From positions 248,001 to 312,000 of the forward strand of contig MKVH01000021.1 in assembly GCA_001899175.1 (NCBI GenBank): a stretch of 64,000 nucleotides of DNA, given 5' to 3'. Below, in pieces: positions 16,782-20,833 of this stretch (positions are counted from its first letter, which is position 1; every line of letters begins with the position of its first letter). Both the position numbers and the translations under genes were made by a program. The notes under the pieces were generated by a model. It ran no database searches. It was not told the DNA's origin and worked only from the letters and a program-made list of their open reading frames with translations. The stretch comes from Candidatus Kapaibacterium thiocyanatum (lineage in GTDB: Bacteria > Bacteroidota > Ignavibacteria > Kapaibacteriales > Kapaibacteriaceae).

Positions 16782-18731
16782 TCAGCGGAGCATCGGCATG
16801 ACGGCGATGGCGATCAGCACGATGATGCCGAGCATCATGAGGAGGGCGTAGTTCTGTGCTACACCGGACTGCATACGACGCAGGATGTTGCCACCCGCAC
16901 CTACGGCACGTGCGGAACCGTTGATGAGGCCATCGATCAGGATGACGTCGACGACCTTCCACAGGAAATCACGGGAGATCATGAAGATCGGGCTGACGAT
17001 GGCCATCTGATAGATTTCGTCGACCCAATACTTGTTCCAGAGCAGTTTGTGCAGACCCGAGAATCGGGATGCGATGGACGCGGCCACGTCCGTACCGTTC
17101 TTGTAGATGTTGCGCGCCAGCAGGATACCGCTGACGGCGATGACGGTGGAAACCGCCATGAGCGTGAATTCGAGCGTCGTGTGTTCGCCGTGATGCTGGG
17201 GCAGGATGGCCATCGCCTTGGCGAAGATCGGCTCCAGCCAGCCTTCGAGGAGGTTGGGCATATGGAAGACGTGGGGGATGCCGAGGAAGCCTCCCACGGC
17301 CGAGAGTACCGCGAGGATGATCAGCGGCACCGTCATCGATGCAGGCGATTCGTGCGGATGGACGTGATGATGGTCGAAGCGTTCTTCACCATGGAACGTC
17401 AGCGTCGTCAGACGCCACATGTAGAATGCCGTACAGAAGGCCGCCACTGCGCCGATACCCCACAGGAGCGGGCTGCCGTTGAGCCATGCGAACCAGAGGA
17501 TCTCGTCCTTCGAGAAGAAGCCCGACAAGGGGAAGATACCGGAGATGGCGAGCGTGCCGATGAGAAAGGTCTTGTACGTCACCGGCATGTACTTCTTCAG
17601 GCCGCCCATCTTCTGGATGTCCTGTTCCTCGTGCATACCGTGGATGACGGAACCGGAACCGAGGAAGAGCAGGGCCTTGAAGAAGGCGTGCGTCATCACG
17701 TGGAACACGCCTGCGGTGAAGGCACCTACGCCGAGTGCCACGAACATGAAGCCGAGCTGGGACACCGTGGAATAGGCCAGGACCTTCTTGATGTCGTTCT
17801 GCACGATGCCGATCGTACCGGCGATCAGGGCCGTTGCGATACCGATGATCGTGACGACCGTCATCGTCGTGGGCGACAGGGCGAAGAGCACGTTCGTACG
17901 GGCGATGAGGAAGATACCCGACGTCACCATCGTTGCGGCGTGGATGAGGGCGGAGACGGGAGTCGGACCTGCCATGGCGTCGGGCAGCCACACGCCGAGC
18001 GGAATCTGTGCGGACTTACCGGTACATCCGAGGAAGAGCAGGAGCGTGATGATCGTCACAGCCGTATCGCCTACGACGAAGCGCTGGGGGGCCATCGCGT
18101 TGATGGTCGAATAGTCGAGCGTGCCGAAGAGATTGAACAGCATGAACATGGCGATCAGCACGCCGAAGTCGCCGATACGGTTCACGATGAACGCCTTTTT
18201 GGCCGCATCGCCGGTCCAGGTGATGTTCGTACCGTCGAACTTCCGGTCGTACCAGAAGCCGATGAGCAGATAGGAGGCCAGGCCCACGCCTTCCCAACCG
18301 AGGAAGGTCAGCAGGAAGTTGCTGCTCAGCACGAGGTTCAACATCATGAAGACGAAGAGGTTCAGGTATGCGAAGAATCGCGGGAAGCTCTTGTCTCCGT
18401 GCATGTATCCGATGGAATACACGTGGATGAGGAAGCCGATACCGGTGATGATCAGCGTGAACAGGATGGAGAGCTGGTCGAACTGATAGGCGATGTCGAC
18501 CGAGAAGCTACCCGTGGCGATCCACGAATAGATCGGAACGACGACGGAGCGTTCTTCGGCCGGGCGTGCCATCAGCCCCATGAAGACCGAGACGGCGATG
18601 GCGAAGCTGGCCAGGATGGCTGCGCTCGCGATCGTGCCGACGAGTTTTTCGCTCTTGAGTTTCTTGCCGAACAATCCCGTTATCAGAAAACCGACCAACG
18701 GGAACAGTGGGATCAGCGCTGCGTAGTTCAT
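16782..18731 (-). CDS. nuoL: NADH-quinone oxidoreductase subunit L
   Basis: A 649-residue polytopic membrane protein matching NuoL, a proton-pumping antiporter-like subunit of respiratory complex I. Family signatures are clear: GWEGVGLASYLLIGFW contains the conserved Glu, and GKSAQIPLGVWL followed by DAMAGPTPVSALIHAAT contains the conserved Lys and His of the proton path. Further Lys/His residues occur in the second antiporter half, and the C-terminal lateral helix and last membrane segment are present. It starts three bases after the stop of a glutamine amidotransferase gene, and no nuoK or nuoM is adjacent. It is therefore separated from any complex I operon in this window. The protein appears complete, so it is probably functional. 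Confidence 0.93.
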   Translation of the reverse strand: MNYAALIPLFPLVGFLITGLFGKKLKSEKLVGTIASAAILASFAIAVSVFMGLMARPAEERSVVVPIYSWIATGSFSVDIAYQFDQLSILFTLIITGIGFLIHVYSIGYMHGDKSFPRFFAYLNLFVFMMLNLVLSSNFLLTFLGWEGVGLASYLLIGFWYDRKFDGTNITWTGDAAKKAFIVNRIGDFGVLIAMFMLFNLFGTLDYSTINAMAPQRFVVGDTAVTIITLLLFLGCTGKSAQIPLGVWLPDAMAGPTPVSALIHAATMVTSGIFLIARTNVLFALSPTTMTVVTIIGIATALIAGTIGIVQNDIKKVLAYSTVSQLGFMFVALGVGAFTAGVFHVMTHAFFKALLFLGSGSVIHGMHEEQDIQKMGGLKKYMPVTYKTFLIGTLAISGIFPLSGFFSKDEILWFAWLNGSPLLWGIGAVAAFCTAFYMWRLTTLTFHGEERFDHHHVHPHESPASMTVPLIILAVLSAVGGFLGIPHVFHMPNLLEGWLEPIFAKAMAILPQHHGEHTTLEFTLMAVSTVIAVSGILLARNIYKNGTDVAASIASRFSGLHKLLWNKYWVDEIYQMAIVSPIFMISRDFLWKVVDVILIDGLINGSARAVGAGGNILRRMQSGVAQNYALLMMLGIIVLIAIAVMPMLR

Positions 18732-18734
18732 GCC

Positions 18735-19643
18735 TTATCCGATCTCCGGTGCAATAGGTTCGAATTCCATTTTTTCCATTTCCATTTGTACGTGATGGAA
18801 CTTGATGCGCATCGTTTCATCGACGACCATCATTCCATTACGCTCCACCTTCATCCAGTCCGAACGCCGTGCCGTGAACGGCTCCGATGCCACGACGATG
18901 GCACTCGGCCGTCCGAACGTCGGCTCCATCATACAGACGTCACCCCGGCAGTGGTATTCCTTGCCGAACATGTAGTACAGCGAGGCCGGTTGCACGTTGG
19001 GATTCGTCGTATACCGTACCGCCACCAACGACGTACCGTTGGTGACGGCGAGGTTGAGGTACGAATGCTGCCGCACACCGGCTTCGATGAGCAGCGCATC
19101 CAGATCCTCGAACATCTTCATCATCGCATGGACCATTTCCTCGCACGTCACGCTTCCCAGCGGGTTGGCGATGTGATTGAGGAACAGACCGAACATGTGT
19201 TCCGAGTCCGTCGATCCCTGAATGGCATCGTATGCAGTGTCATTGAGCCCGCGGAGCAGGGCACGACGTATCTGCTTGTATCCGCCGAGCACTCCGTTGT
19301 GCATGAACATCAACTGTCCGCACGAGAACGGATGGGAGTTCACCTCTTCGACCGTGAGGCCGGGAGATGCGGCCCGGATATGGGCGAAGATGCACGGCGA
19401 ATAGATCTTCCTCGCCAGGTTCTTCAGGTTATGATCACTCCACGAGGGCTTGATGCTTCTGAAGACGCATGGTTCGTTGTCGAGTTCGGGCGCATACCAC
19501 CCTATGCCGAAGCCGTCGCCATTGACGGCAACGGACATTTCTCCGGCATTCACACTTTGGGCCGTCACCAGCGAGAACCTGGGCTTGTAGAGCAGGTCAT
19601 CGGCCAGGATCGGCGGCCCTATGTATGCGACAAAACGACACAT
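18735..19643 (-). CDS. Class II glutamine amidotransferase (YafJ/EgtC-like)
   Basis: A 302-residue protein starting MCRFVAYIG. Cys2 becomes the N-terminal nucleophile after Met removal, as in class II (Ntn) amidotransferases. Other family motifs are NGDGFGIGWY, FAHIRAASPG and HPFSCGQLMFMHNGVLGG, which form the glutamine pocket. These enzymes hydrolyse glutamine or gamma-glutamyl amides. Relatives act in ergothioneine synthesis or glutathione turnover, but no ergothioneine partner genes are nearby, so the substrate is unknown. The gene leads directly into nuoL (three-base gap). Upstream it is separated from the CADD-type gene by a strong terminator, so its own promoter must lie in 19644-19680. 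Confidence 0.85.
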   Translation of the reverse strand: MCRFVAYIGPPILADDLLYKPRFSLVTAQSVNAGEMSVAVNGDGFGIGWYAPELDNEPCVFRSIKPSWSDHNLKNLARKIYSPCIFAHIRAASPGLTVEEVNSHPFSCGQLMFMHNGVLGGYKQIRRALLRGLNDTAYDAIQGSTDSEHMFGLFLNHIANPLGSVTCEEMVHAMMKMFEDLDALLIEAGVRQHSYLNLAVTNGTSLVAVRYTTNPNVQPASLYYMFGKEYHCRGDVCMMEPTFGRPSAIVVASEPFTARRSDWMKVERNGMMVVDETMRIKFHHVQMEMEKMEFEPIAPEIG

Positions 19644-19681
19644 GCGTTAGGGAGCCTGATAAGGGGCGTAAAAATACAAAA

Positions 19682-19709
19682 CGGAAGCCGGTATCACTAC
19701 CGGCTTCCG
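19682..19709 (-). terminator. Strong terminator of the CADD-type gene
   Basis: CGGAAGCCGGTA (19682-19693) and TACCGGCTTCCG (19698-19709) form a perfect 12-base stem with loop TCAC. On the minus strand it is followed by TTTTGTATTTTTACG. It lies 27 bases past the stop of the upstream gene. Confidence 0.85.
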
Positions 19710-19735
19710 CCGCAAAACGTCGGACTGCGTCAGGC

Positions 19736-20428
19736 TCAGTTGAGGGCGGCCTTCTCCGTGCACCAGGTGTTGTAGACACCGTCCAGCAGGAGGTTGAAGG
19801 CATCGGCAGCTTCGCGGGCCGCATCGAGGGCAGCCTGCTTCTGTTCGTCGGACTGGCACATATGCACCAGGGCCTCGCGCGTCACCGTGCGGTGGATTTC
19901 GTCGGCATGTTCGTGCACGGCGAAGAATTCCAGGGCGTTGGGCGTATCGAGGTCGTACCACTTCTTCAGTCCGGCGATCTTCGTCGTCGAGATTTCCGGG
20001 ATCTGCGATTCGTAGGCATAGAGGGCAGCCAGGCCTTCCGCCGGGTTGTTGCGGCGGGCGAGTTCCTTGAGGATGCTCACCGAGGCGCGCGTATGGGGCA
20101 GGAAGCGGCGCTGCTTGATCTCTTCGCGCGAGACGCCGAGGGATTCGGCGAAGCGCAGCCAGAGTTCGGGGTGGTTGTTGGCACCGTGCTCTTCTTCGAT
20201 GAGGTTCTCGAGGAGCATCTGGCGGATTTCCATATCGTCACAGTTCGCATGCGTCGCGCTGACGTACGTCGGGAACGCATGGACCTGATGGTAGTATTCC
20301 CTTGCATACTCACGGAGCATGTCGACCGTCAGTTGACCTTCGTTCCACATGATGTAGAACGGGTGCTGCAGCATGTGGCGTTCGGTAACGATCTCGTCCA
20401 GCCGGGCGAGGAATTCTTCTGTTGTCAT
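19736..20428 (-). CDS. CADD-type 4-aminobenzoate (pABA) synthase
   Basis: A 230-residue helical protein of the CADD/PqqC-like di-metal oxygenase family. In Chlamydia this enzyme makes pABA for folate from one of its own tyrosines. Relative to my recollection of chlamydial CADD numbering, every key residue is present at a constant offset of two. These are the sacrificial tyrosine Y25 (in HPFYIMW), K150 (in ISTTKIAGLKKWY), and metal ligands E79, H86, E140, H172, D176 and H179. ATG 20428 is chosen over the longer frame because GAGG lies about ten bases upstream and family members start here. It is monocistronic, with its own Bacteroidota-type promoter and a strong terminator. Function is a confident family inference, not demonstrated. 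Confidence 0.85.
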   Translation of the reverse strand: MTTEEFLARLDEIVTERHMLQHPFYIMWNEGQLTVDMLREYAREYYHQVHAFPTYVSATHANCDDMEIRQMLLENLIEEEHGANNHPELWLRFAESLGVSREEIKQRRFLPHTRASVSILKELARRNNPAEGLAALYAYESQIPEISTTKIAGLKKWYDLDTPNALEFFAVHEHADEIHRTVTREALVHMCQSDEQKQAALDAAREAADAFNLLLDGVYNTWCTEKAALN

Positions 20429-20470
20429 GGACGTAACCTCTGATGAGGATTGATTGATACGCAAGGAAGC

Positions 20471-20501
20471 CAAAGATAGCGGATTTCGTAATTTTGCCAA
20501 C
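20471..20501 (-). promoter_or_regulatory. Bacteroidota-type promoter of the CADD-type gene
   Basis: On the minus strand GTTG (20501-20498) and TATCTTTG (20478-20471) are separated by exactly 19 bases, matching the TTTG-N19-TAnnTTTG pattern except for one base in the -33 element. The predicted leader is about 37 bases. Confidence 0.6.
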
Positions 20502-20536
20502 CACAGGAATTCAACACAACAGCTCGAACAGGCAAC

Positions 20537-20833
20537 ATGTCCACGGACGTTCCTTTTCTCCCTTTCGAACAGGGCGATCCTTCGCATGACGAAGTGGTCG
20601 AAATCGCCCTACCGACGCGCGTCGTCCTCTACAACGACGACTGGCACACGTTCGACGAGGTCATCGAGCAGATCATCAGGGCCACGAGTTGCAGCTACGA
20701 TCATGCGGAAGCCTGCACCTACGAAGTGCATCACCACGGCAAGTCCATCGTCTTCGAAGGCGACATGGGCGACTGCCTGCGCGTGAGCTCGGTCCTGGAA
20801 GAGATATCCCTCCATACCCAGCTCGAGTGCTAA
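20537..20833 (+). CDS. clpS: ATP-dependent Clp protease adaptor ClpS
   Basis: A 98-residue protein whose core (about 28-95) matches Clp[16 protein letters not shown] contains the NDD-x-H-T-F signature of the N-degron pocket. A conserved [14 protein letters not shown] segment and a final helix-strand follow. ClpS binds the ClpA/ClpC N-domain and delivers proteins with destabilising N-terminal residues. The first 25 residues are the usual disordered extension. It is divergent from the CADD-type gene, with 108 bases between starts, and converges with the next gene, whose stop lies six bases beyond. A TAATTTTG at 20489-20496 could be its -7 element, but no good -33 element precedes it. Confidence 0.88.

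Follow-up and report, generated by a model that had tools for sequence, protein, structure and literature searches.

The gene at positions 19736 to 20428 of the window (the whole stretch of 64,000 nucleotides of Candidatus Kapaibacterium thiocyanatum DNA that was analysed) very probably encodes a self-sacrificing pABA synthase of the CADD/PabS type, which would be the only source of pABA in an organism that is free of chorismate and would be fed by scavenged tyrosine. We infer the chemistry and the role as sole source from family membership, residues, fold, absences in the pathway, the presence of FolP and the distribution of the gene, where the chemistry itself is taken from the literature on CADD and NePabS. 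The original prediction was of a CADD-type pABA synthase outside Chlamydia: the enzyme type agrees with family model, residues and fold, and the location holds here, but the occurrence is not new, as NePabS of Nitrosomonas europaea has already been characterised (PMC11965152). CADD outside Chlamydia and the rare self-sacrificing chemistry are thus already known, and what is new is the context, i.e. the tie between CADD and the loss of chorismate synthesis. The features in the window that are referred to in the following are:

19736..20428, minus strand: CADD-type pABA synthase gene, as predicted by family model and fold (230 aa)
20354..20356, minus strand: codon of Tyr25, which is predicted to supply the pABA ring (CADD Tyr27, NePabS Tyr25); from sequence, invariant in 71/71 homologues
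19979..19981, minus strand: codon of Lys150, the predicted amino donor (CADD Lys152, NePabS Lys159); from sequence, invariant in 71/71 homologues
20471..20478, minus strand: TATCTTTG, Bacteroidota-type -7 promoter box, fits TAnnTTTG
19680..19711, minus strand: intrinsic terminator, stem-loop (14-pair stem, folding z -3.8) followed by a T-rich tail
20537..20833, plus strand: ClpS, divergent neighbour (PF02617, 52.5 bits)
18735..19643, minus strand: class II glutamine amidotransferase (GATase_4), neighbour downstream behind the terminator
16782-18731: NuoL (complex I), neighbour of the CADD gene

Family, fold and active-site residues

The open reading frame runs on the minus strand from an ATG at 20428, conserved across the relatives L002-L033, to the end of the stop codon at 19736. 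The protein scored 289.6 bits with TIGR04305, the CADD model of NCBIfam (cut-off 200), and is not a member of the PqqC (TIGR02111, 76.6 bits, cut-off 240) or TenA thiaminase II (TIGR04306, 22.4 bits, cut-off 130) families; the match to the BesC model (NCBIfam) was far under its cut-off as well. The Pfam matches were Haem_oxygenas_2 and TENA_THI-4. PqqC, TenA and other heme-oxygenase-like enzymes have the fold in common with the protein, but their profile scores stay far below the cut-offs. Among solved structures, 9pj4 (4-aminobenzoate synthase), CT610/CADD (1rcw) and CtCADD (8va9) are closest in sequence, and the identity to Chlamydia trachomatis CADD is 37%. An AlphaFold model based on 38 sequences (pLDDT 95.1, pTM 0.90) had C. 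trachomatis CADD (1rcw) as its top structural match over 994 aligned chains (Z 32.4, rmsd 1.1 A, 214 residues), with PqqC ranking lower (Z 28.1, 1.9 A) and UndA, FlcD, BesC and HrmI as other matches of the HDO fold. Most of the closest named loci carry the label Candidatus Kapaibacterium, Ignavibacteria or Bacteroidetes. Three records with proteins 75-84% identical to that of the window, L010 (Bradyrhizobiaceae), L021 (Melioribacter roseus) and L034 (Acidobacteria), probably carry a wrong taxon label; L010 and L021 also share the gene order of the window.

Up to the last metal ligand the protein runs at a constant offset of +2 to the numbering of CADD. The predicted metal ligands are E79, H86, E140, H172, D176 and H179. 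Together with Tyr25 and Lys150 this places all eight catalytic and metal-binding residues at +2, as had been claimed from the sequence, and no ligand is missing. These eight residues are invariant in 71/71 comparable homologues from several phyla (the alignment held 74 distinct rows, from which one with a masked X and two mini-CADDs, described below, were omitted). As 32 of the 230 positions are invariant, the chance that eight out of eight would be so is 6e-8, ignoring relatedness. The protein shares with CADD (CT610) the TIGR04305 family, the sacrificial Tyr and Lys and the six ligands, and the CADD dimetal site consists of three His and three carboxylates (PMC11965152). On the basis of these ligands and of the fold match we predict a dimetal site within the HDO fold.

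The residues that are consumed are Y27 and K152 in CADD and Y25 and K159 in NePabS (NE1434), and NePabS moreover needs Y41, with Y45 and W99 being important (PMC11965152). Their equivalents are all present (Tyr25, Tyr41, Tyr45, Trp90 and the Lys), whereas a loop of about 10 residues of NePabS is missing. The metal preference is set by Y141/Y170 in CADD versus F148/F177 in NePabS, and the F148Y variant of NePabS takes Fe/Fe and Mn/Fe about equally (PMC11965152). In the window protein these positions hold Y139, matching Tyr141 of CADD and differing from Phe148 of NePabS in the manner of the variant, and F168 beside the metals, which equals the Phe of NePabS and differs from Tyr170 of CADD. By analogy to the variant, the Y139/F168 pair predicts an enzyme that tolerates both Fe/Fe and Mn/Fe. 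The full residue pattern of the window protein recurs in 58 of the 74 rows, 13 others deviate solely by a Tyr at 168, and Phe at both positions (the NePabS state) was found in none of the 74.

TAnnTTTG is the promoter consensus of the Bacteroidota. In the window, a box that fits it lies about 50 bases 5' of the ATG. Such boxes occur in 33/33 upstream regions (window and L002-L033), where mononucleotide shuffles would give 1.39; a second promoter prediction falls at the same place (TTGGCA-16-TATCTT). With this box and the 14-pair terminator, the claim that the gene has its own promoter and terminator stands. The intergenic region of 108 bp (20429-20536) is common to the CADD gene and the divergent clpS, and their adjacency is kept in 21/21 close loci (L002-L022). 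We considered that ClpS might clear the spent enzyme and gave this no weight, because the adjacency was not found in L023-L029, L031 and L032, all of which retain the enzyme. A folate gene cluster was looked for around the gene and rejected: the genes nearby encode ClpS, a TPR protein, an M61 peptidase, the glutamine amidotransferase and NuoL, and FolP sits elsewhere on this contig at a distance of about 250 kb. In this the window gene differs from chlamydial CADD. A survey of 2007 had already placed CT610 with folate genes and reported the pab genes to be missing in Chlamydia (PMC1971073).

Chorismate and pABA genes in the genome and its relatives

The assembly of the organism (G000; 3.27 Mb in 28 contigs, 99.41% complete, 0.04% contaminated) was searched for the genes of the classical route, with 14 genomes as controls. 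The search gave: i) no match for Chorismate_bind, i.e. PabB, TrpE or MenF (control 14/14); ii) four weak matches for PabA/TrpG (TIGR00566), none above the cut-off (control 14/14); iii) no chorismate synthase, AroC (control 14/14); and iv) no DHQ synthase, AroB (control 11/14). FolP is present (G000:C21:18014-18757, PF00809, 271.7 bits). A full set of pab genes was therefore not found as far as PabA/TrpG and PabB are concerned, which supports the original prediction of a folate synthesis that bypasses PabA and PabB; the stronger point beyond it is that chorismate synthesis itself is missing. With neither chorismate synthase nor DHQ synthase in the genome, the organism would have to draw the ring from tyrosine that is taken up or salvaged rather than made, and as TrpE is absent too, tryptophan is probably supplied from outside. 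A separate observation concerns the respiratory quinone: complex I (NuoL) is present, chorismate synthase and isochorismate synthase are not, and to our knowledge every bacterial quinone route begins at chorismate.

Among 80 genomes of the order, 56 carry a full CADD, 8 a divergent form and 16 none; Chorismate_bind occurs in 21 and DHQ synthase in 24. Of the 56 full carriers, 45 are without Chorismate_bind and likewise, without exception, lack DHQ synthase. For nine of the 11 carriers with Chorismate_bind, only TrpE-like or isochorismate synthases were found, next to a CADD with intact residues:

G368, G488, G491, G496, G499, G502, G504, G507, G510: carriers in the order with TrpE-like or isochorismate synthase only

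Their whole TrpE-like proteins scored about 408-425 bits, below the TrpE cut-off of 517.7 and yet with TrpE as the clearly best model, and one is a fragment. Genome G485 holds an isochorismate synthase and a true PabB (460.2 bits, cut-off 275) next to an intact CADD, by which an absolute exclusion between CADD and PabB is refuted. The 16 genomes without CADD comprise 7 with Chorismate_bind and 9 with neither. The former include G106 with PabB (459.5 bits, cut-off 275), G376 with a TrpE-like protein and an isochorismate synthase, G431 with an isochorismate synthase and further unclassified Chorismate_bind pieces, and G405, G477, G521 and G524, whose short Chorismate_bind proteins were not counted as PabB.

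The same association was seen in the class (119 genomes), where CADD over the cut-off was found in 35, Chorismate_bind in 77, FolP in 115 and chorismate synthase in 84 genomes. Chorismate_bind was present in 1 and absent from 34 of the CADD carriers, against 76 and 8 of the rest (Fisher 6e-21, ignoring relatedness); for chorismate synthase the numbers were 10 and 25 against 74 and 10 (3e-10, ignoring relatedness). The sole overlap of CADD and Chorismate_bind in the class, G109, concerns an isochorismate synthase (294.3 bits, cut-off 224.75). FolP accompanies CADD in 34 of the 35 carriers, G085 being the one without a match. Within genus g21, CADD and PabB substitute for each other: G010, G072, G085 and G092 have CADD and no Chorismate_bind, G040 and G049 have PabB instead of CADD (442.7 and 435.7 bits, cut-off 275), and G030 holds unclassified Chorismate_bind pieces. 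Eight genomes of the class have neither a full CADD nor Chorismate_bind (G005, G008, G052, G062, G079, G088, G089 and G115); two of these, G062 and G089, have mini-CADDs, which leaves 6/119 without CADD of any kind or Chorismate_bind. Because such genomes make up 9/80 of the order and 6/119 of the class, scavenging of pABA probably occurs nearby in the lineage.

In other phyla the relation was inspected for the genomes of 31 (L034-L064) of 63 named loci; CADD homologues have been named in Wolbachia, Rickettsia, Chloroflexi, Sphingomonas and Nitrosomonas (PMC11965152). Chorismate_bind was present in 20 of the 31. Of these proteins 18 were classified, as TrpE-like (11), isochorismate-synthase-like (6, two of them under the cut-off) and salicylate synthase (1); none of the 18 is a PabB, which excludes PabB, as far as the assemblies go, for 24 of the 31 genomes only. 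The classification leaves aside one longer protein each in G123, G135, G136, G139, G142, G146 and G147, the loci L092 and L097, and protein fragments from G123 and G149. Viral contigs yielded no relatives, neither among the 165 pattern matches of the mini-CADD alignment nor for the single pattern match of the window protein.

Variant and shortened forms

Genome G494 of the order carries a CADD (L162:1667-2350, minus strand) with the changes Y25F, Y41F and K150F in which all metal ligands are retained. It passes TIGR04305 with 207 bits without the sacrificial residues, so that the score alone is no proof of function. In the tree it stands beside the CADD of G488 on a long branch (0.99 versus 0.29, support 85), and the genome encodes a protein of 617 aa, about the size of a fusion, that is best matched by PabB models, under their cut-offs (348.6 of 452 and 316.9 of 328.4). 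The CADD of G493 (L186:1086-1853, minus strand) has E140K, D176E and an insertion of 4 residues, and represents a decayed gene or a sequencing error; with these altered ligands and no Chorismate_bind in the genome, the organism may scavenge pABA.

A shorter form of about 185-190 residues, which we call mini-CADD, was found in seven genomes of the families f4 (G062, G089, G529, G531) and f25 (G455, G489, G492). It scores 70.9-82.1 bits with TIGR04305, under the cut-off of 200, and the seven sequences cluster together in the tree with a support of 100. Retained are Tyr25 within an HPFY motif, Trp28, Tyr41, Tyr45, Trp90, E140 and Lys150 with its surroundings, and the ligand motifs are spaced as E-xx-H and H-xx-E-xx-H, versus E-x6-H and H-x3-D-xx-H in CADD; the second motif of G089, as read by eye, has its acid in this position too. 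We infer that the respaced residues would still bind metal, and as the Tyr and the Lys are kept, the mini-CADDs may work like CADD although they fall outside the model. PabB was found in none of the seven genomes: four are without Chorismate_bind and three have isochorismate synthase only. In G062 a FolE gene (265.8 bits, cut-off 202) lies about 1.1 kb downstream of the mini-CADD. A profile search across the phylum (394 genomes) gave a match in 33, with only G062, G089 and G455 above 100 bits. G459 has a CADD of intermediate form (150.8 bits) with E-xx-H yet H-x3-D-xx-H. Two surroundings were noted by eye: the mini-CADD of G529 (L158:1-4457) adjoins an apparent regulator of the Rrf2 type and an operon for Fe-S clusters that resembles sufBCD, and the intermediate CADD of G459 (L149:4995-8131) lies between efp-accB-like and accC-like ORFs, which would place it inside an acetyl-CoA carboxylase operon.

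Within the literature covered, mostly outside the subscription journals and by title, start of the abstract and term counts, nothing was found on CADD or on loss of chorismate synthesis in Kapabacteria, nor on the order-wide link between the two, the G494 variant or the mini-CADD subfamily. PMC10409787 names a member of the Kapabacteria, with no word on folate in the passages covered.

Proposed mechanism, alternatives and meaning

For CADD and NePabS it has been described that O2 reacts at the dimetal site, that radical transfer leads to excision of a Tyr side chain, which leaves Gly, and to amination by Lys, that both carboxylate oxygens derive from O2 and that a chain yields one pABA at most (PMC11965152, PMC13108848; the latter reviews the CADD mechanism). 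In the window protein, the dimetal centre (E79, H86, E140, H172, D176, H179) would likewise activate O2 and the oxidising equivalent would pass via Tyr/Trp residues to Tyr25, whose Calpha-Cbeta bond would be cleaved so that Gly remains; the freed ring would be oxidised to the carboxylate and receive its amino group from Lys150. Each chain would thus supply no more than one pABA, and this would be the only recognisable supply for FolP in the genome. NePabS is reported to complement an E. coli pabABC deletion (PMC11965152).

A different reading, which we consider unlikely, is that pABA or folate is scavenged and that the CADD-like oxidase has another role, either the oxidation of an external substrate as in other HDO enzymes or signalling, as was first proposed for chlamydial CADD. 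The HDO fold indeed serves many reactions (PqqC, UndA, FlcD, BesC, HrmI), and since the relatives G008, G052, G079, G088 and G115 have FolP but neither CADD nor Chorismate_bind, uptake of pABA is likely possible in the class. The swap of CADD and PabB within genus g21 argues against this reading, and we know of no role besides pABA synthesis that needs both Tyr25 and Lys150. Against another role speak the invariance of these two residues throughout the homologues, at a distance from the metals that is about 14 A in CADD (PMC11965152), and their joint loss in G494, the genome with the PabB-like protein. That CADD-derived pABA is only a supplement to a main supply via an unrecognised, non-homologous PabB-like route is very improbable: G485 keeps both CADD and PabB, and unknown enzymes would be compatible with the absence of AroC and AroB homologues, but the genome has no homologue of TrpE, MenF, PabB, AroC or AroB and hence gives no hint that chorismate serves as a precursor.

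With the self-sacrificing synthase as the preferred reading, it seems on balance probable that most of the lineage makes folate without chorismate, from pABA cut out of tyrosine, and that related families do likewise via mini-CADD, a separate and undescribed subfamily. The swap in g21, the CADD of G494 and the mini-CADDs are natural variants that could serve to tell the metal chemistry and the self-sacrifice apart, and they reveal that naming by the current model can err both ways: the G494 protein passes without the sacrificial residues and the mini-CADDs fail with the Tyr and Lys in place. The puzzling cost of one protein of 230 residues per molecule of pABA would be explained in a genome without chorismate, a natural setting where PabABC would be unusable and FolP is still present. 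If this is true, the self-sacrificing route has been retained since it makes folate independent of the shikimate pathway.
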